Source: Singulisphaera sp. GP187 (GTDB taxonomy: Bacteria; Planctomycetota; Planctomycetia; Gemmatales; Gemmataceae). Taken from it: a stretch of DNA of 38,695 bases. Positions 3,416 through 14,430 of this stretch are shown in pieces. Location: NCBI GenBank assembly GCA_945861245.1, contig CAMAUE010000037.1, positions 1-38,695 of the forward strand, in the 5' to 3' direction. The translations under genes and the position numbers were made by a program. How positions within the stretch are numbered: the stretch's first letter is position 1; every line of letters starts with the position of its first letter. The notes beneath the pieces are model-generated. The model had not been told where the DNA came from, made no database searches, and was given only the letters and a program-made list of their open reading frames with translations.

Positions 3416-3480
3416 AAAACGAAATGGGGTAACACCAGGCGTCCTTGAGCTTTTTTCATGACTTTGCGATTTTATTTCAA

Positions 3481-3495
3481 GTTCAGAAGCTGAAC
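3481..3495. promoter_or_regulatory. Possible operator palindrome in larB/3586 divergent region
   Basis: GTTCAG-AAG-CTGAAC is a perfect 6-bp inverted repeat with a 3-bp spacer, about 90 bp before the 3586 gene. A weak promoter-like pair (TTGAGC at 3445, TTTTAT near 3470) precedes it. Regulatory function is only a guess. Confidence 0.2.
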
Positions 3496-3585
3496 ATTCC
3501 GATTCCTCCCTATAACCGCTTCCCTCGGCAGCGGTCCGCGCCCGCGTTTTGTCGTTTGCCAGTGCCCCAGAAGGGGAGGTTTCAA

Positions 3586-5271
3586 ATGAACACAGGTTTC
3601 CTTGTCACTACTTGCCTATGTCTCGCGCTTGGCCAAGCGCCGGCGGATGCGGACTATTTTAATCAGCGAAACCTGAGCATCCCGATGGAGATCGACCCCG
3701 CCCTACGCGCCGACATTCGCGAGTTGCTGCTGTTCGCATCAAGCAATCAGGGCCGCGATTGGCAGCAAGTCGCCGGCCCGATCTTGGCGGAAAAAGGGGC
3801 GTTCGCCTTCTTCGCGCCGGCAGACGGCACGTATTGGTTGCGCGTCATCAAGATTAACCGACAAGGCAAAAAGGAACCGGATGAGATTTCTATTCTGCGT
3901 GGCCAACCCGATCGTATTATGGTGATCGATACGCTGAAGCCGATTGTCAAGTTGATTCAGGCGGTCCGCTCGGGCAGCGATGTTTACGTGACGTGGGATA
4001 TACAGGAAGACAATCCCGACCTGGGCAAGGACGGGTTTCGCGTCGAGTATCAGCCGAAGGGCGGCGATGTCTGGACACCTATTTCCGTTTCAAAAACGAT
4101 CAAGGGCAACGCCCAGTTTCGCCCAGGCAACAACTTCGCGCTGACGATTCGTGTGACGATCCGCGATTTGGCGGGCAATACCTCGTTTGCCTTGGCGGAT
4201 ATCCCCGGCACCATTGCGACGACCGGATTCAAGGAAGCGCCGACACCGGGCGCAAGCGGCGCCACGCTGCCAGCCGACCTTTCGTTCGGCGGCAAACCGA
4301 TAGAGACGCCGAAGGATCCGATTGGGCCGCCGCCAACATTCGAGGGGTTGAAGAAGCCGGACATTGCGCCGCCTCCAGTCACGATCAATCCGCCGGGCAT
4401 GGACGTGAAACCGCCACCGGGCATCGTCGAACCGCCGACTCCCGTTGCGGTGAAGGAAAATCCGAACGACCGCGTGATTGCCGACTCGCGGACGTTCGTC
4501 GATCCGTTGAAGTCGCCGACCGGTGCGTTCGAGCCGCGCACGACGAATGCGTCGCCCAACCGCCGACCGCTGCCACCGTTGCAGCATCTGAACCAGCATC
4601 AGGTGACGCTGGAGTATGAACTGAAGCGAGTTGGCCCGTCGGGCGTCGGCAGCATCGAGCTTTGGCTGACGAAAGACGACGGCGCGACCTGGGAGATTTT
4701 TGCCCGCGATGAGGACGTACAGAACACAGCCGTCAATCCACGCCAACAGCGTCGCTTCGAGTTTCGCACTGCCGACGGGACGCCGTTTCCCGACGCTATT
4801 TACGGCCTGACGCTGGTCGTCAAGAATCGCGCGGGCCTGGGCAAGGAGCCGCGCGCCGGCGATGTACCGGAAATGCGCATCGAGATCGACACGGTGAGGC
4901 CGATCTCGCAACTGTTCAAACCGATCCCGGACCCGAGTCGGCCCGACCAACTGCTGATCCGCTGGAACGCGCGGGACAAAAACCTGGGCGCGACGCCGAT
5001 CAATCTCGAATACGCTGCCAAGCCGGAAGGCCCATGGGTGCCGATCAAGGTTGACCTCGAGAATACCGGCCGATTTGCAAATGAACGAGTCAGCGGCGAT
5101 TTTTCGTGGAAGGTGCTGGCGGACACGCCGACACAGGTTTACTTGAGGCTGCGTGTACGCGATCGCTCAGGTAATGAAGGCATTGCCGTCACGTCTGATC
5201 CGCAGTTCGTCGATCTCACCGAACCCGAAGGGGCGCTCATTGGTATCCAGACAAACCCGAAAACGCCGTGA
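3586..5271 (+). CDS. Secreted protein with duplicated Ig-like modules and Pro-rich linker
   Basis: The product has 561 residues. The ATG at 3586 follows GGGGAGG (3573-3579) at good spacing and opens a signal peptide (MNTGFLVTTCLCLALGQAPA). I do not recognise a named family. The protein reads as two copies of a two-part unit. Part one is a beta-rich domain ending in a phrase like IDTLKPIVKL or IDTVRPISQL (about residues 20-110 and 345-445). Part two is an Ig/fibronectin-like domain (VTWDIQEDNPDLGKDGFRVEY; LIRWNARDKNLGATPINLEY), about residues 110-200 and 450-550. A proline-rich stretch of about 120 residues separates the copies. The design suggests an extracellular or cell-surface structural or adhesive protein. 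It converges on the SPFH operon across a family A repeat. Confidence 0.8.
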   Translation: MNTGFLVTTCLCLALGQAPADADYFNQRNLSIPMEIDPALRADIRELLLFASSNQGRDWQQVAGPILAEKGAFAFFAPADGTYWLRVIKINRQGKKEPDEISILRGQPDRIMVIDTLKPIVKLIQAVRSGSDVYVTWDIQEDNPDLGKDGFRVEYQPKGGDVWTPISVSKTIKGNAQFRPGNNFALTIRVTIRDLAGNTSFALADIPGTIATTGFKEAPTPGASGATLPADLSFGGKPIETPKDPIGPPPTFEGLKKPDIAPPPVTINPPGMDVKPPPGIVEPPTPVAVKENPNDRVIADSRTFVDPLKSPTGAFEPRTTNASPNRRPLPPLQHLNQHQVTLEYELKRVGPSGVGSIELWLTKDDGATWEIFARDEDVQNTAVNPRQQRRFEFRTADGTPFPDAIYGLTLVVKNRAGLGKEPRAGDVPEMRIEIDTVRPISQLFKPIPDPSRPDQLLIRWNARDKNLGATPINLEYAAKPEGPWVPIKVDLENTGRFANERVSGDFSWKVLADTPTQVYLRLRVRDRSGNEGIAVTSDPQFVDLTEPEGALIGIQTNPKTP

Positions 5272-5350: not shown

Positions 5351-6295
5351 TTATTTTTTCCGCGGCGACAACGGAAACTGCGTGATCGTCAGGCCTTCGC
5401 TGGTCAGGTAATGGTCCAGTAGTTCGACGCGGCCTTCTTCGCGCATCTTTGCGTAGATGCGCGTCATGTCGTCGAGCCAAAGCGTGTTGAGATAATCCGC
5501 GTTCCTGCGCGACAGTTCGCGATACGAATCCAGCCGGGTCCGAAAGCTGGTTGCCTCCGCGCTGGCGCCAACGAGTTCCGTGCGGGCATAGGCCTCGGCT
5601 TTCACTTTCATGTCATGCATTTTGGAAGAGGCCGCCTCGCTTTTGCTGTTGATCTCGCGTTTGGCGTTGCTTAGCTTCGTCGGAATGCTCTGCTGGGCGT
5701 TGGTCAGTTTGCTGAACGCATCCTTGACCTGGTCCGGCGGGCTGAGATCGGTGATGCTGACGCGTTTGATATCGATGCCGAGGTCGTAATCCGCGAGCCG
5801 ATCTTGCATCTGCCCGACCAGCCAGCCGGCCAACTGACGCTTGCCGCGACGGAGCACGTCGTCGACGGTGCGGCCCGCAATCCATTCCGCGAGCAGCGAC
5901 TCGGCGGCACGCGCGACGAACGCGTCGATGTTGGGTTGTTGCAGCACGAACTTTTCGACATCCGCCTCGCGCACGCGGAAGTCAATCGATGCCTGCACAT
6001 TGACGAGATTGTGATCGCCGGTGACCATCTGCCCGAACGGGACGATGTTGTCGTCATCGTCCTTCTTCTCAACAAACCCGACCTTGATGCTGCGCTCCCG
6101 ACCCACAGGCGCGAGATCCACGCGGTCGATGCCCCACGGCCAGGAGATGTGCAATCCTTGGCCGGGCTTCGTGTCGAGGATTCGGCCAAAACGCCGAATC
6201 ACGGCACATTCATGCGATTGCACCTGCGTGAGTGCAGACGCGACGGTCCAGACGCCGAAGATGAGACTGAGTAGGTAAAACCCGTAGCGCCACAT
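5351..6295 (-). CDS. HflK-like SPFH/band 7 membrane protein
   Basis: The product has 314 residues. One N-terminal membrane segment (about 5-23) is followed by an SPFH domain: HECAVIRRFGRIL, PGQGLHISWPWGIDRV, and VTGDHNLVNVQASIDFRV, which matches the HflK strand pattern. LSPPDQVKDAFSKLTNAQQ matches the HflK region PPEEVKAAFD. A charged helical segment follows (about 210-275), ending with WLDDMTRIYAK, like the HflK C-terminus. In other bacteria HflK and HflC form a large membrane cage that modulates the FtsH protease. The start codon overlaps the stop of the upstream hflC-like gene (TGATG), so translation is probably coupled. It is the last gene of the operon that begins with the ATPase-SPFH fusion. 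No FtsH gene lies in the window. Confidence 0.88.
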   Translation of the reverse strand: MWRYGFYLLSLIFGVWTVASALTQVQSHECAVIRRFGRILDTKPGQGLHISWPWGIDRVDLAPVGRERSIKVGFVEKKDDDDNIVPFGQMVTGDHNLVNVQASIDFRVREADVEKFVLQQPNIDAFVARAAESLLAEWIAGRTVDDVLRRGKRQLAGWLVGQMQDRLADYDLGIDIKRVSITDLSPPDQVKDAFSKLTNAQQSIPTKLSNAKREINSKSEAASSKMHDMKVKAEAYARTELVGASAEATSFRTRLDSYRELSRRNADYLNTLWLDDMTRIYAKMREEGRVELLDHYLTSEGLTITQFPLSPRKK

Positions 6296-7287
6296 CAGTT
6301 CGCTCCTTTCTTTTCCTTGGCAGTATCGAGGTTGGGTCGCGGCGGCGTGAAGAGCGATTCAAAAGCGGGCCGATGCGTTGACAACAGCAGCATCGTCTTG
6401 GAATCGCCGAGGATGTTTTGCAGTTTTTCCATCTTCTTGAGGAACTCGTAAAACTCACGATCCTGGCTATAGGCGTGATTGCGAATCTTCATCGCCTCGA
6501 CGTCGGCTTCGGCTTTGATCCGTTCCTCTTCGGACTTCGCTTTCGCCAATTGCTCGCGAATGTCGGCATCGGCTTCGTTCTTTTTGTTGGCCGCCTGGCG
6601 CTCACCATCGGCGATGTATTTCGTCGCTTCGGCATTGCGTTCGGCCTTGATACGGGCAAAGATGGAATCGCGCACATTGCCCGGATGATTGAATCGTCGC
6701 AAGCGAATATCAATGACATCGATGCCATACTCGTCGCGCGCGGGGCCACGCAAAGCCGCGAGTAGACGTTGTCGAAGTTTGTCGAGTGCGACATCGACGC
6801 GCGTACGGCCGTCAGCCGGATCGGCGATGGTCGTGCTGATGAAATCGTCCATTGGCATTTCGCCAACGGCGGCGCCGAGCCGACTGCTGATGAGCGGTTC
6901 GAGAATCGTGCGAGCGCGATCTGCCGTGCCGATACGACGAACGAAGAGATCGACGCCATCGCGATCGATGATCCGCCAGCAGACGTAGGCCTCAAGCGAC
7001 AGGAGCTTGTCGATCGCCTTGCCCGCCGGGTCGTAGGTGAGCTGGTCTTGCGCGGGCAGATCGAATTGGTGCAGCCGACGATCGAGTCGTTGCACCTGCT
7101 GGATTGGCCAGGGCCAGCCGAACTTCAGGCCGGCCCCGTTGGCGGAATCGCTGCCGTCGTAGGTCACGCGATGCTCGCCGAGGACGGTGACGTAGGCATA
7201 TTCAGCCGCATCGACGGTGTACAGCGACCAGCGCGCGAGTGTGATGATTGCAATGATCGCCAGCGGCGTGAGGATGTGTTTTTTCAT
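6295..7287 (-). CDS. HflC-like SPFH/band 7 membrane protein
   Basis: The product has 330 residues, with one N-terminal membrane segment (about 5-24). The SPFH domain shows AEYAYVTVLGEHRVTYDG, GLKFGWPWPIQQVQRLDRR and YGIDVIDIRLRRFNHPGNVRDSIFARIKAERNAEA. The last is the HflC signature in which the domain runs into a long charged helix (about 215-285). The end (REFYEFLKKMEKLQNIL, then MLLLSTH) parallels the HflC end DPDFYAFIRSLRAYE. The usual role is partnership with HflK in the membrane complex around FtsH. AGGGA lies five bases before the ATG. A family B repeat (7305-7358) separates it from the fusion gene upstream, and its stop overlaps the next start. Family call is firm; FtsH partnership here is inferred. 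Confidence 0.88.
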   Translation of the reverse strand: MKKHILTPLAIIAIITLARWSLYTVDAAEYAYVTVLGEHRVTYDGSDSANGAGLKFGWPWPIQQVQRLDRRLHQFDLPAQDQLTYDPAGKAIDKLLSLEAYVCWRIIDRDGVDLFVRRIGTADRARTILEPLISSRLGAAVGEMPMDDFISTTIADPADGRTRVDVALDKLRQRLLAALRGPARDEYGIDVIDIRLRRFNHPGNVRDSIFARIKAERNAEATKYIADGERQAANKKNEADADIREQLAKAKSEEERIKAEADVEAMKIRNHAYSQDREFYEFLKKMEKLQNILGDSKTMLLLSTHRPAFESLFTPPRPNLDTAKEKKGAN

Positions 7288-7365: not shown

Positions 7366-10300
7366 TCACGGCTCCTCGCCCTTGTGCTCCGGTTGACGTA
7401 TCGGCATCCGATTCTGTGGCATAAATATAGGCGGCGGGGTGCGGAATAGCTCCGGGTCGAACAGCATTAGGTTGCGCCTGCCTGCGACCTTATCACTGTC
7501 GATCAACAGCAATTCGCGGCCGTTCAGTGCCTTGCCCAGCGTCTCCCAGTAGACGCGAAACTCTACGAGCGAGGCTTGCAGGCCCAGCAGATCACGGCGA
7601 CGTTTCTTTGCGTTCACGGCAACATCGTCGATGCTGTTGCCCGTGAGCAGATCACTCGCCGCATCGAATGCCAACTCGAGTTCCGCCTCCGCGCTCAACT
7701 CCAATCGGGGACGATATTGCGCGAAGAATCGCTCTCGCTCCCGGCGGGCGTCCTCGATTTTTTCTGTTTTCGTGGCCCGAGCCTTTGTTAATATCTTGAC
7801 AACTTCGGCGTCAGCTTCCCGGCGTTTCTTCGTCACTTCCTCCTCGGCTTCGTTGATCTTGCGATCGCGATCTTCCATCGCATTGGCCACGGCGTAGTAG
7901 GCGGGTACGACTTCGCCCGGCGGATGCAGATCGATGACCGCCACGCTTTCGATCGCCACGCCCAGGCCGAGTTCGTCGCAGCGAGCGCGAATGCGAGTCA
8001 GCACATCCGCCTGGAATTTGCCGCGTCCTGCCGTCATCAGCTCCGGGAATGAGCGTCCTGCCACCATCGCCCGCAACTCTGACTCGGCGATCGTTTGGAT
8101 CGCGTTCTCCGGATTCGTAACAGCAAACAGAAAAACACGCGGCTTGGCCACGCTATAGCGAACGCTGACGAGCAGGTCAGCAAGGCTGTTGTCGCCCGTT
8201 ATCATCATTGCTTCCTCGCCGATGCGGGCTTCCTTGCGATGAGCGCTCGACCAGGTCAATACGCCCGTCGCGATCACTTTTTCGGGTTGCTCCCTGAAAC
8301 CGATGCTGATGGAGCGAATACGCTGCGACACGCGCGTGGTCGATTCAATCGGCCACGGCAGCTGGTAATACCAGCCGGGCTTCAGATCTTCGCCGACGGG
8401 ATTGCCGAAACGGCGGACGATGGCGACTTCGTCCGAGGCAACGATTGTAAGCCCAGTCGCGGCATATCCGAGCACCACCAACGCGACGGCGGCGAGTACA
8501 AGCCGCCGCCAATGATGCTCACACCAGTGGACCGCATGCGTGATATTGAAGTTGCGCCCGATCCAATCGTCGGTGCCTTTCAAACGCTGAGCCCACGCTT
8601 GCCAGGTCGGGCTATCCACGCTGCGCTCAAACCACAGAATTCGCAGCGAATTGAGCAGCACCAGAAACGAACCGAGCTGATGATAGATCACTGCGGCGAC
8701 GGGCGATTGCTCGTACCAATCCGCCGGTGCGAACAGAGGCCAAAGCCAGGCGGTGACGACGATCCCGACCGCGTTGACGACATACGCAAACCAGATGATA
8801 TTCTGATGGATGATCTTGACTGTCTCACGCGACAGCCTGACGAGGAACGGCAAATGCTTGAGCGGATCGCCCATAAGGACGATGTCGCCCGCCTCGGCCG
8901 CGATGTCGGTCCCGGTGCCGACGGCGATTCCGACATCCGCGCCAGCGAGGGCCGGCGCGTCGTTGATGCCATCGCCGACCATCGCAATCGGTGTGCCGGC
9001 GGCCTGCAATTTGGCGAGGAATTGAGCTTTCTGATCGGGCAAAAGCTCGGCGTGGATTTCGCTGAACGGCAGGTCGAGCGCTATCGCCTTGGCAGCGGCG
9101 GTGCGATCACCAGTGAGCAAGACGATCGGGTCGATGCCTATCTCGCGGAGATGATTAAGCAAACCGACACAGCCGGGCCGCAGTGTGTCGCGTGCACCGA
9201 TAACACCGAGCACGATGCCATCGCGGGCCACGAGCAACGCCGTTTGGCCGGTTGCGTCGAGCTTGGTTAGCGCTTCGTCAGCGGCGAGCGGGATGGTAAT
9301 GTTTCGTTCGGTGAGCAAGCGTCGCGTGCCGATTAGGATTTCGCCGTGCTCCGTGCGAGCGACGACGCCGGCGCCGGGTTGCGCTTGGAAGTCGGTGACC
9401 GGTTCAAGCGTCACGCCGCGTTTCGCCGCCTCGCCGACGATGAGCCGGGCGAGCGGATGTTCGCTGCTTTGCTCGGCACTGGCGGCGGTTCGCAGAACGT
9501 CATTCGCGTCAGCGCCATCGATCGGCACGATGTCGCCGATTGCGAGCTTGGCTTCGGTGATCGTGCCGGTTTTATCGAAGGCGAAGGCGCGCACGCTGGC
9601 CAAACGCTCCAGTGCGGCACCGCTCTTGATGAGCACACCGGTTCCCGCCAATCGCCCGAGCGCCGCGATGACTGCCGCAGGGGTCGCCAGAATCAATGCA
9701 CACGGGCAAGCCACGACCAGCACGGACAACGTCGGATACGCGCTGAACGTCAACACCTGGCGCAGGCTGAGCCGGTTCGCTCCGGTCGGCCGCAACCAGG
9801 TCGTGCCGAAATAGAACGCACACACGAGGAACGTCAGCAGGGCGATGCCGAGCACGGCCGGCAGAAACATTCGCGCGAGCCGATCGGCACTGCGTTCGAG
9901 GTTGCTCTTGTCCTTCAACGCCTTCGCCGTCAGTTCGATGACCCGTCCCGCCACGGTCTGTTGGGCGACGCGTTTCGCTTCGATCGTCATCGCCCCGGAT
10001 TGGTTGATCGAGCCGGCCAGCACCTCATCGCCGACCACCTTGTCGATCGGCATGCTCTCTCCAGTCAACGCGCTGGTATCGACGGTTGATCGGCCCTCGA
10101 GCACCACGCCATCGACGGGTACCTTCGCACCGGGCTTGACGACGACGCGGTCGCCGAGGATCACGTCCTTGGTGAAGACGCGCGTCTCCTGTCCGTCGCG
10201 CAACACCCAGCAGCGGAGCGGGAAAACTTCGACGAGCTTGCGAATCGCGTTCTTGGTGCGGTCGAAAGTAAATGCTTCGAGACACTCGCCGAACATGCCG

Positions 10301-10644
10301 ATGAAGACGACCTCGGCCGCGACGAGCCATTCTTGAATGAGGATTGCCGCGAGGAAGGCGATAGCGATGGCGATGTCCGCGCCGATCTTGCCATCCAAGA
10401 GGCCTTGCAAAGCGATGTAGACGACGCGAGCCCCACCGAGGATCGCCGCCACCATCGCGAAACCGAAGCGATACCCGAACGGGTCGCGAGGCCAGGCCGC
10501 GAACAGCGACCAGCCGGCCCAATCGCCCAGACGAGGCAGCAGCTCCAACGCCATCAACGCGGCCAGCAAGGCCGTCATCAGATAGAGCGGGCCGTTGCTT
10601 TCCTCGGCGAAAGCGTCATCGGTATGCGAAATTTCGCGATGCAT
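7366..10644 (-). CDS. P1B-type metal ATPase fused to an HflK-like SPFH domain
   Basis: The product has 1092 residues from the ATG at 10644; an in-frame TTG lies 24 bp upstream and neither has a clear ribosome site. Residues 1-670 are a complete heavy-metal P-type ATPase: actuator TGES (194-197), membrane CPC (313-315), phosphorylated Asp357 in DKTGT, SEHP (394-397), hinge GDGIND (557-562) and the last membrane pair ending LNSLRILWF. There is no N-terminal metal-binding HMA domain. After a linker of about 40 residues comes a membrane segment (714-732) and an SPFH domain (734-922: VAIVRRFG, LKPGWYYQLPWPIES, ITGDNSLADLLVSVRYSV, HPPGEVVPAYYAV). A charged helix (922-977) and an HflK-like end follow. 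There is no frameshift. CPC points to soft-metal transport (Cu, Ag, Zn, Cd), but the exact ion is unclear. Confidence 0.93.
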   Translation of the reverse strand: MHREISHTDDAFAEESNGPLYLMTALLAALMALELLPRLGDWAGWSLFAAWPRDPFGYRFGFAMVAAILGGARVVYIALQGLLDGKIGADIAIAIAFLAAILIQEWLVAAEVVFIGMFGECLEAFTFDRTKNAIRKLVEVFPLRCWVLRDGQETRVFTKDVILGDRVVVKPGAKVPVDGVVLEGRSTVDTSALTGESMPIDKVVGDEVLAGSINQSGAMTIEAKRVAQQTVAGRVIELTAKALKDKSNLERSADRLARMFLPAVLGIALLTFLVCAFYFGTTWLRPTGANRLSLRQVLTFSAYPTLSVLVVACPCALILATPAAVIAALGRLAGTGVLIKSGAALERLASVRAFAFDKTGTITEAKLAIGDIVPIDGADANDVLRTAASAEQSSEHPLARLIVGEAAKRGVTLEPVTDFQAQPGAGVVARTEHGEILIGTRRLLTERNITIPLAADEALTKLDATGQTALLVARDGIVLGVIGARDTLRPGCVGLLNHLREIGIDPIVLLTGDRTAAAKAIALDLPFSEIHAELLPDQKAQFLAKLQAAGTPIAMVGDGINDAPALAGADVGIAVGTGTDIAAEAGDIVLMGDPLKHLPFLVRLSRETVKIIHQNIIWFAYVVNAVGIVVTAWLWPLFAPADWYEQSPVAAVIYHQLGSFLVLLNSLRILWFERSVDSPTWQAWAQRLKGTDDWIGRNFNITHAVHWCEHHWRRLVLAAVALVVLGYAATGLTIVASDEVAIVRRFGNPVGEDLKPGWYYQLPWPIESTTRVSQRIRSISIGFREQPEKVIATGVLTWSSAHRKEARIGEEAMMITGDNSLADLLVSVRYSVAKPRVFLFAVTNPENAIQTIAESELRAMVAGRSFPELMTAGRGKFQADVLTRIRARCDELGLGVAIESVAVIDLHPPGEVVPAYYAVANAMEDRDRKINEAEEEVTKKRREADAEVVKILTKARATKTEKIEDARRERERFFAQYRPRLELSAEAELELAFDAASDLLTGNSIDDVAVNAKKRRRDLLGLQASLVEFRVYWETLGKALNGRELLLIDSDKVAGRRNLMLFDPELFRTPPPIFMPQNRMPIRQPEHKGEEP

Positions 10645-12692: not shown

Positions 12693-12764
12693 AGTGATCG
12701 CAATTTGCCCTTGCCAACTTATCGCATTTCGGTTATCCCTCCGCGCATCACGGAGGATTTTATC

Positions 12765-13649
12765 TTGGCCAAGGCTCGTCTGGTACCTGCGTATTCCACG
12801 AGGATGGGGAACGCCTATTTGGGCGACGCGGTGGACGTTCTCGGCAAACTACCGGACGAATCCGTCTCCCTCGTCTTCACTTCGCCGCCCTTTGCGCTGC
12901 GTCGGCAGAAGGCTTATGGCAACGTCTCGGCAGATGAGTACATCGAATGGTTTTGGCCCATCGTCGAGCAGATTCGTCGCGTGCTGCGCAACGACGGCAG
13001 CTTCGTCATGGAACTGGGCGGAGCGTGGAACCCCGGCGGGACGCGGTCGATGTTGCCCTATGAATTGCTGATTAAGCTCGGCAAGATATTTCACCTTGCA
13101 CAAGATTTCTACTGGTACAATCCGTCGCGCCTGCCGTCGCCAGCCCAGTGGGTGACGATTCGTCGAACGCGCGTCAAGGAAGCTGTGACGCACATTTGGT
13201 GGCTGTCGAAATCGACGGAGCCGCAAGCCGACAATCGGCAGGTGCTGGTTCCGTATTCGAAGTCGATGAAGCGATTGCTCAAAGACGGGTATCAGCCTGC
13301 GATGCGACCATCGCAGCACGAGATCGGCCCGCATTTCCAGCGCGATAACGGCGGCGCAATCCCGCCAAACGTGCTGACAGTGGCGAATACTCGCTCGTAT
13401 GATGAATATCTGTTCAAATGCCGGGCAGCGGGTGTACAGATCCATCCCGCACGGTTCCCGCCCGAGTTGCCGGACTTCTTCATCCGATTCCTGACACGCC
13501 CCGGGCAAACGGTACTCGACCCGTTCGCCGGCAGCAATACGACTGGGCAAGTCGCCGAACAGCATGGCCGCAAGTGGATCAGCGTTGAAATCAACGCCGA
13601 TTACATTGCCGGTTCCAAGCTGCGGTTTGACGAGGCTGCGGCTGCATAA
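12765..13649 (+). CDS. DNA methyltransferase, N6_N4_Mtase family
   Basis: The product has 294 residues from a TTG at 12765, chosen because GGAGG (12752-12756) lies eight bases before it. A TTG at 12705 and an ATG at 12804 are alternatives. The catalytic motif IV is TSPPF (39-43), and the S-adenosylmethionine motif I is VLDPFAGSNTTG near residue 250. IV comes before I, which is the beta-class order. Members transfer a methyl group to the exocyclic amine of adenine or cytosine in a specific DNA site; SPPF is commoner among N4-cytosine enzymes, but this does not settle it. No restriction endonuclease is recognisable next to it. The convergent neighbour (13744-14430) is an unknown winged-helix-like protein. 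It may be an orphan enzyme or half of an unusual pair. Confidence 0.9.
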   Translation: MAKARLVPAYSTRMGNAYLGDAVDVLGKLPDESVSLVFTSPPFALRRQKAYGNVSADEYIEWFWPIVEQIRRVLRNDGSFVMELGGAWNPGGTRSMLPYELLIKLGKIFHLAQDFYWYNPSRLPSPAQWVTIRRTRVKEAVTHIWWLSKSTEPQADNRQVLVPYSKSMKRLLKDGYQPAMRPSQHEIGPHFQRDNGGAIPPNVLTVANTRSYDEYLFKCRAAGVQIHPARFPPELPDFFIRFLTRPGQTVLDPFAGSNTTGQVAEQHGRKWISVEINADYIAGSKLRFDEAAAA

Positions 13650-13743: not shown

Positions 13744-14430
13744 TTACTTCTTCACCGGCCTGCTTCGCAGCAGGTTGAGGTGCCGGTCAAACCGGTCCTC
13801 CATGTAGCGGTGAATATTTGTGAGCACACGAATATCGCCAGCCGTCACCACTCGACTGCTCGATGTTTCCGCATCCACGTCGGCGAGGATGCGGTCGAGT
13901 TCAGCGAGCGTCTTGGAAACTTCCTCGATCCTTTCGTCGAGAGCGTCGCCCTTCATGTTCTCCGTGACGCTCCAGTAGCGGCAGGCGTCAGCGAAGCTCA
14001 AGTCGGCTTTACGGTTGCCATCGAACTTTTGAAAAGCCGAGGAATCGAAAAGCACTTTGAGACATCGCTCCTGATCCCGCGTGAGGCGTCGCAGTGTCGA
14101 CGACGGCGCGGCTTCCTCCTCCTGCATCATCACGCGGCGGATGACATTCCGTCCGTCGCGCGTCAGGGCGTAAAGCTTCGCCCCCATTTTCACCAGCCAG
14201 CCTCGCCGGGCGAGTCCTTTTTCGCCCATGATGCTGCTGAGAATCTTGTTCGAGTCCGGGTGCTTTTCCGCGAATCCTTTCAGCCCGAAGGTTGCAGGAA
14301 ATCGCTGCCATGACGAGACAATCAGCGCTTCGGCAGTGAAAGGCGAATGTCCCTGTTTTTCGAGTTGGTCCGCGGCCAACAGAATCTTCTCGGGAACGGT
14401 GAAATCATCCACGTTCGGTTTCGCAGACAC
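13744..14430 (-). CDS. Unknown protein with winged-helix-like N-terminus
   Basis: The product has 228 residues from a GTG at 14430, with GGGGGA six bases upstream. I do not recognise a named family. The first 90 residues (FTVPEKILLAADQL, SPFTAEALIVSSWQ, then a GLARRGWLVKMGAKLYALTRDGR hairpin) have the look of a winged helix-turn-helix. The remainder is helical and charged (LDERIEEVSKTLAELDRILADVD), and may form a coiled coil. There is no signal peptide, no membrane segment and no recognisable nuclease motif. It converges on the DNA methyltransferase gene, so a regulatory or DNA-modification link is possible but unproven. 14431-14714 upstream holds nothing I can name. Confidence 0.7.
   Translation of the reverse strand: MSAKPNVDDFTVPEKILLAADQLEKQGHSPFTAEALIVSSWQRFPATFGLKGFAEKHPDSNKILSSIMGEKGLARRGWLVKMGAKLYALTRDGRNVIRRVMMQEEEAAPSSTLRRLTRDQERCLKVLFDSSAFQKFDGNRKADLSFADACRYWSVTENMKGDALDERIEEVSKTLAELDRILADVDAETSSSRVVTAGDIRVLTNIHRYMEDRFDRHLNLLRSRPVKK

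Follow-up and report, generated by a model that had tools for sequence, protein, structure and literature searches.

A predicted P1B metal ATPase fused to an HflK-like SPFH subunit suggests a modular exporter cassette in Planctomycetota

The fusion gene and its operon

We analyzed a 38,695-nucleotide stretch of DNA (the window) from Singulisphaera sp. GP187 (Planctomycetota, Gemmataceae; contig CAMAUE010000037.1 of assembly GCA_945861245.1), in which one minus-strand gene encodes a P1B metal ATPase joined in frame to an HflK-like SPFH domain. The gene (7366..10644) reads without an internal stop from an ATG at 10644 to the stop at 7366 and encodes 1092 amino acids. We took ATG 10644 as the start because the resulting N-terminus, MHREI.H (window 10624-10644), is near-invariant in a 56-row alignment; this segment is possibly a metal-binding or regulatory tail. 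Pfam matches, all above cut-off, cover both halves of the protein (E1-E2_ATPase at residues 142-333, Hydrolase at 351-570 and Band_7 at 734-936).

The ATPase part comprises residues 1-672 (8629..10644, minus strand, like all features of this gene). Its translation contains the motifs TGES (residues 194-197), CPC (313-315; 9700..9708), which marks the metal site in helix M6, DKTGT (357-361; 9562..9576), the phosphorylation motif, SEHP (394-397) and GDGIND (557-562). TGE, CPC, DKTGT and SEH are invariant across the 56 rows. This half passes the P1B subfamily model TIGR01525 with 551.4 bits (cut-off 346.25), and the predicted structure agrees with a P1B fold, for which 4bbj and 4umw are solved structures for comparison. 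Since fold searches with the whole fusion model gave P-type ATPases only among the matches listed, we turned to a sequence profile to test the SPFH half.

Between the halves lies a linker (residues 673-711; 8512..8628) that is predicted to be helical at lower confidence (block predicted local distance difference test, pLDDT, 57-74). An extra membrane helix follows directly before the SPFH domain (residues 712-731; 8452..8511), with a hydropathy peak at 716-734 and a model helix at 712-729. The SPFH/Band_7 domain (residues 734-936; 7837..8445) was found by Pfam and by profile search, and the remainder of the protein (residues 937-1092; 7369..7836) is predicted to form a long helix, as in a coiled coil (model helix 913-981), with further helices after it. 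With a profile of 13 relatives, the best solved-structure match of the SPFH half was chain 7vhq_E, E. coli HflK (2.4e-35). Because of this match and its position before an HflC-type gene, we class the SPFH half as an HflK-like subunit on sequence grounds.

Two further SPFH genes on the same strand follow directly. The first, 78 bases downstream of the fusion, is an HflC-like gene of 330 amino acids (6295..7287), which scores 129.0 bits on TIGR01932 (cut-off 134.4) and matches E. coli HflC (7vhp_G) at 6.2e-23. The second is an HflK-like gene of 314 amino acids (5351..6295; TIGR01933 113.8 bits; E. coli HflK 1.2e-13), which overlaps the HflC-like gene by one base, 6295 being common to its ATG and the preceding stop codon. 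An earlier description made from the letters alone (the sequence-only reading) had recognized the catalytic motifs of a P1B ATPase in the first ~670 residues, an HflK character in the C-terminal half and HflC- and HflK-like neighbors; the translation, the model scores and the E. coli profile matches bear out all three. No Pfam match to PacL (DUF1490) occurs in the three proteins of this operon, the only ones searched for it.

For a metal assignment, M6, M7 and M8 were aligned against E. coli CopA and ZntA. The predicted metal site of the window ATPase consists of CPC, Asn624 and His655-Gln656 (columns VN in M7 and HQLGS in M8). The latter pair lies in the last ATPase helix (8677..8682), H655 being invariant and Q656 near-invariant over the 56 rows, and other fused ATPases carry His-Gln or His-Glu in the M8 columns. 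Cu-type P1B-1 ATPases have YN in M7 and MxxSS in M8, and Zn-type P1B-2 ATPases Lys in M7 and Asp in M8; in the same columns, CopA reads CPC, YN and MALSS, and ZntA reads CPC, Lys and Asp. VN and HQLGS do not match a P1B-1 type like CopA, nor does the absence of Lys and Asp match a P1B-2 type like ZntA. As neither pattern fits, we name no metal. A literature search for the M8 motif HNxSS gave nothing.

Occurrence of the fusion and of other exporters at the HflK position

We searched the SPFH half at 1e-15 in a family sample of 95 genomes (f1, including the window's own). It was matched in 84 genomes, in 81 of them strongly (4e-30 or better), and 76 of the 81 strong matches sit in a frame of at least 850 amino acids. 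Three genomes were matched by a short HflK-like frame (332-354 residues) only, one of which (G013) carries a fusion cut by a contig end. In all 38 family loci that were read, the window included, ATPase sequence lies in the SPFH frame, and the frame is single and unbroken in 37, some of them in single-contig genomes. The exception, L066, which is also the named record L149, is split into two frames in its assembly, and L159 likewise. Copies ending at contig edges (e.g. G091, G030, G082, G013) were counted as they stand.

Among named planctomycete loci, ATPase sequence is found in the SPFH frame in 43 of 44, a count that includes the two split loci (L149, L159), a few cut by contig ends and several from the same genomes as the family sample; the 44th starts at a contig edge. 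The closest named relative (L133, a Gemmataceae isolate whose name points to Lake Baikal) shares 96% identity with the window in the SPFH half. Four genomes of a 392-genome phylum sample carry the fusion outside the family (G467 and G310 of f2, G471 of f6 and G254 of f80), and so do a record titled Planctomycetales (L192) and one titled uncultured bacterium (L189).

A protein-database search for the same architecture, which the sequence-only reading had proposed, turned up many members: all three Pfam domains of the window protein were present in 66 of 71 proteins among the matches listed. These searches admit proteins of 0.55-1.75 times the query length, a range outside which ordinary HflK falls, and the lists are thus no measure of fusion frequency. 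Members are annotated, for example, as Cu+-exporting ATPase, as HflK protein or as SO_0444 family Cu/Zn efflux transporter.

Within the family, 24 of the 38 loci have the HflC-like gene adjacent to the fusion, and 21 have the second HflK-like gene there. Six family genomes assembled in 1-3 contigs (G010, G011, G012, G071, G074, G087) contain no HflK-model match of at least 98 bits other than the fusion and a single short HflK-like frame, and the best HflK matches of the window genome are the fusion and the HflK-like gene at 5351..6295. Because these scans return the fusion and a short frame, the fusion, where present, is by model score one of the two main HflK relatives of the cell in the genomes checked. 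The window genome also carries two FtsH genes over cut-off.

As controls we used 54 ordinary hflK-hflC loci of 3.2-13.6 kb, 34 from other phyla or unnamed bacteria and 20 planctomycete; their flanks vary in length, which makes this a comparison and not a census. In the flanks fetched, neither a P1B ATPase gene nor a third SPFH gene was found (0/54 each). The control HflK proteins have short tails ahead of the model start (median 30 residues), none with a membrane segment.

A different picture emerged from 47 loci of the phylum sample, gathered as 14 + 33 from the 392 genomes by an SPFH match in a long frame, with at most 4 or 5 candidates scored per genome and the second set drawn from the matches listed; they are a selection of long frames and not a census. 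Two loci (L125, L126) were left out of the counts and one (L103) was assigned to the ArsP-fused class by hand. The first SPFH protein is fused to a P1B ATPase in four loci (2 by Pfam, 2 by our own profile), to an ArsP_1 permease in 13 (6 and 7, respectively) and to a CDF cation-efflux domain in three (1 and 2). The ArsP_1/SO_0444-fused loci are L042, L043, L045, L046, L048, L050, L094-L096, L101, L103, L106 and L124; when five of their proteins were scanned against NCBIfam, four passed the SO_0444 Cu/Zn efflux model and one start-truncated frame failed. Database ArsP_1/SO_0444-HflK proteins (P0072-P0191) bear names that include Bradyrhizobium, a Gemmatimonadetes and a Tectomicrobia bacterium. 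The CDF-fused subunits, found by Pfam or profile, lie at L040:3971-5731, L121:3523-5088 and L122:5886-7433.

The other 27 loci carry a different extension: 10 match a profile of our own (NX), 16 belong to the same clade and one, L049, stands apart. The NX extension (L041:3409-4230 and relatives) adds to the HflK-like subunit a stretch of about 270-340 residues that is predicted to contain 4-6 membrane helices. Pfam found Band_7 only on four whole NX-type proteins, and the first 50 PDB matches listed for an AlphaFold model of one (mean pLDDT 70.7) were SPFH-type or vault proteins and included no other transporter-like fold. L049:5177-7471 encodes an HflK with 445 extra residues at its N-terminus, and the tree described below places it with ordinary HflK. 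Of the 26 NX-clade loci, 22 have a separate P1B ATPase gene downstream in the same orientation, as do two of the three CDF loci (L121 and L122, where it is ZntA-like); within the flanks fetched, none of the 17 P1B- or ArsP-fused loci has such a gene (L103 has nearly no sequence past its third SPFH gene). Most loci (41 of the 47) include a third SPFH gene.

Trees were quick searches with support from the Shimodaira-Hasegawa-like approximate likelihood ratio test (SH-aLRT) only. For the SPFH tree, 18 of the 54 ordinary HflK rows were dropped for thinning; the ATPase tree lost 19 of 66 rows and gained two fused rows, with CopA and ZntA as the only other P1B ATPases. In the SPFH-half tree, all extension-bearing subunits except L049 form one group inside HflK (86 rows, SH-aLRT 89), within which they group by type (43/44 P1B-fused, 12/13 ArsP-fused and 26/26 NX-clade), the three CDF rows falling in two places. 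In the ATPase tree, one group (86) contains all 27 fused ATPases that were sampled, the ATPases of NX cassettes stand apart (100) and the two of CDF cassettes fall with ZntA (99). Trees and loci together therefore tie ArsP, CDF, ZntA-type P1B and other P1B pumps each to the SPFH locus, and a single origin of the P1B fusions is possible on these quick trees.

Elsewhere in the window, an AIR-carboxylase-like gene (PF00731; 2581-3336), which we take to be LarB-like, a protein of nickel-cofactor synthesis, has no visible link to the fusion operon. A 608-residue frame with a proline-rich middle lacks a Pfam match (3445-5271), an N6/N4 DNA methylase gene (12705-13649) follows a prolyl-tRNA synthetase gene, and a 228-amino-acid frame beside the methylase gene is also without a Pfam match (13744-14430).

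A proposed exporter-bearing cage and its alternatives

We put at roughly 60% the probability that the predicted P1B exporter with its HflK-like subunit assembles with the HflC-like and HflK-like neighbors into an HflK/HflC-type cage that carries pumps on its rim. The locus is likely one form of a modular SPFH cassette whose metal exporter can be exchanged, and its proteins would assemble into a cage, transport metal and bind FtsH. That the pump is built into an SPFH cage was first proposed from the sequence; comparative genomics supports this part of the proposal, because unrelated exporters are joined to HflK at this one position, or else a P1B gene stands in the operon, and ordinary hflKC loci show nothing of the kind in the flanks fetched (0/54 controls). 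The accompanying idea of a link to membrane quality control through FtsH is possible but indirect, and weaker than the cage itself.

HflK and HflC face the periplasm, and SPFH proteins of this type are reported to bind FtsH (PMC2636767); the E. coli HflK/C assembly surrounds FtsH with 24 subunits, of which 12 are HflK, and occurs both closed and open (PMC13220708). In intact operons of the fusion, the SPFH half holds the place of HflK in ordinary hflK-hflC operons, directly before the HflC-like gene. P1B ATPases end in the cytosol; because of this, and of the periplasmic position of the HflK SPFH domain, the extra helix would pass outward and leave each half on its usual side. A periplasmic SPFH domain in the fusion would be consistent with the one extra helix and with the known sides of both halves.

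In such a cage, the ATPase would take over the place of the short cytosolic tail of HflK, and the fusion would alternate with the HflC-like subunit. The second, transporter-free HflK-like protein might fill some of the HflK places as a spacer, and therefore the bulky pump would occupy only a fraction of the rim positions. Many exporters would thereby be collected into one stable patch, where FtsH, the usual partner of HflK/C, could watch over damaged pumps or remove them. Since MgtA, itself a P-type ATPase, is an FtsH substrate, turnover of pumps within the cage appears plausible by analogy. The gene mgtA is named among known FtsH substrates (PMC13220708). A wider version, in which planctomycete HflK serves as a socket for swapped exporters (P1B, SO_0444/ArsP, CDF), typically with an HflC-type partner and a transporter-free spacer HflK and policed by FtsH, is tentative and somewhat less likely than not.

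Several observations weigh against the cage. On the HflK equivalog TIGR01933, the fusion scores 118.5 bits, below the cut-off of 159.4 that its relatives L040 (CDF), L045 and L048 (ArsP) and L049 reach, and the HflK model gives a short HflK-like frame a higher score than the fusion in G467 and G022. Both SPFH neighbors are absent from 14 of the 38 family fusions and from those of G467 and G310; in six of these 14 family genomes that were examined, an HflK-like partner lies elsewhere in all six, beside an HflC-like gene in four, and G027 and G004 also have an HflK-like and HflC-like pair. The system is dispensable, since G052 (one contig) and G094 (estimated 100% complete) have neither the fusion nor an HflK match at 1e-8.

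The phylum survey adds further reservations. The 47 loci were chosen for long frames, which selects for the presence of an extension though not for its identity or for a neighboring ATPase, and their flanks are uneven in length. In 27 of them the extension has no transporter assignment. One exporter per cassette is, from gene content, not a strict rule, because two of the three CDF-fused loci also have a P1B gene. Among 22 aligned separate cassette ATPases, CPG, CPT or CPS replaces CPC in 12 (L051, L092, L093, L097, L098, L104, L108, L109, L112, L114, L115 and L123, from the M6 alignment); these may have an altered metal site or another substrate and perhaps do not carry the expected metals.

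The strongest competitor to the cage is a scaffold in which the SPFH half clusters and stabilizes the exporter, in the way reported for PacL proteins and the P-type pumps of mycobacteria, with no involvement of FtsH. Metal efflux platforms of the PacL/CtpC type are on record (PMC9374683, PMC13043812), and an exporter that varies beside constant SPFH partners fits this account, which we consider a serious though minority possibility, at about one chance in four. It sits less easily with the HflK/HflC type of the SPFH half and its partners, a class reported to bind FtsH (PMC2636767), and with the presence of FtsH in the genome.

The relation could also be reversed, with the ATPase serving the cage and metal binding or pumping at the rim acting as a sensor that opens or closes it and so sets FtsH activity. 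The rank of the fusion among the two best HflK matches of these genomes and the open and closed forms reported for HflK/C (PMC13220708) are compatible with this. A sensor, however, would not need several unrelated exporters at one site, and the motifs of a working pump are conserved, which makes this account improbable. Still less probable is a historical fusion without functional coupling, in which neighboring genes merged once and were then inherited. The grouping of 43 of 44 SPFH halves and of all 27 sampled ATPase halves on the quick trees agrees with a single merger, but the joining of ArsP and CDF to this subunit and the separate P1B genes in its operon, against 0/54 controls, are repeated associations that strain it. 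Finally, an assembly or sequencing error that joined two genes, or a split gene, can be set aside almost entirely even though the window lies in a 289-contig draft genome, as the same architecture recurs in independent genomes, some of one contig, and in named records. The sequence-only reading had itself named an error at the linker, or absence from every close relative, as what would undo its one-frame fusion without stop or frameshift; independent genomes exclude the former, close relatives carry the fusion, and the frame of 1092 codons stands, with the same architecture in 37 of 38 family loci.

Known systems and implications

The locus resembles the E. coli HflK/HflC/FtsH system in gene order (HflK, then HflC), in its best solved match and in the membrane helix directly before the SPFH domain. 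Compared with the ordinary HflK of the 54 control loci, which has a short tail, the fusion differs by a whole transporter and by the third SPFH gene. It shares the P1B fold, the catalytic motifs and CPC in M6 with CopA and ZntA (4bbj, 4umw), and departs from them in the H-Q of its last helix and in its C-terminal SPFH extension. The SO_0444-family Cu/Zn efflux proteins with an HflK tail are alike in that this SPFH subunit again carries an exporter, within an operon of this kind; they have ArsP_1 instead of P1B as transporter and are known to us only by database names.

The nearest functional idea that we found in print is the mycobacterial PacL/CtpC platform, in which a dedicated scaffold protein of the membrane, whose gene neighbors that of the pump, gathers P-type metal pumps into clusters. 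That scaffold is a small PacL (DUF1490) protein that forms foci without need for flotillin, and the platform was later named the effluxosome (PMC9374683, PMC13043812). The putative scaffold in the window is, by contrast, an SPFH protein fused to the pump. The sequence-only reading knew of no described protein that joins a pump to an SPFH domain. This holds for the open-access literature, in whose titles and abstract starts we found no SPFH-metal exporter fusion among the matches listed (most subscription papers and bioRxiv lie outside this search); it does not hold for databases, where members already appear with the names of transporters or of HflK.

The purpose of SPFH cages, and their contents other than FtsH, are open questions. 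An HflK-type subunit covalently tied to metal exporters more than once names a testable class of clients. If the plug-in arrangement is true, it would be a metal efflux machine built from SPFH proteins and a natural experiment in client recruitment by SPFH cages; it would join the PacL system as another type of platform for metal efflux and would offer a covalent handle on the position of a client in the HflK/C cage.

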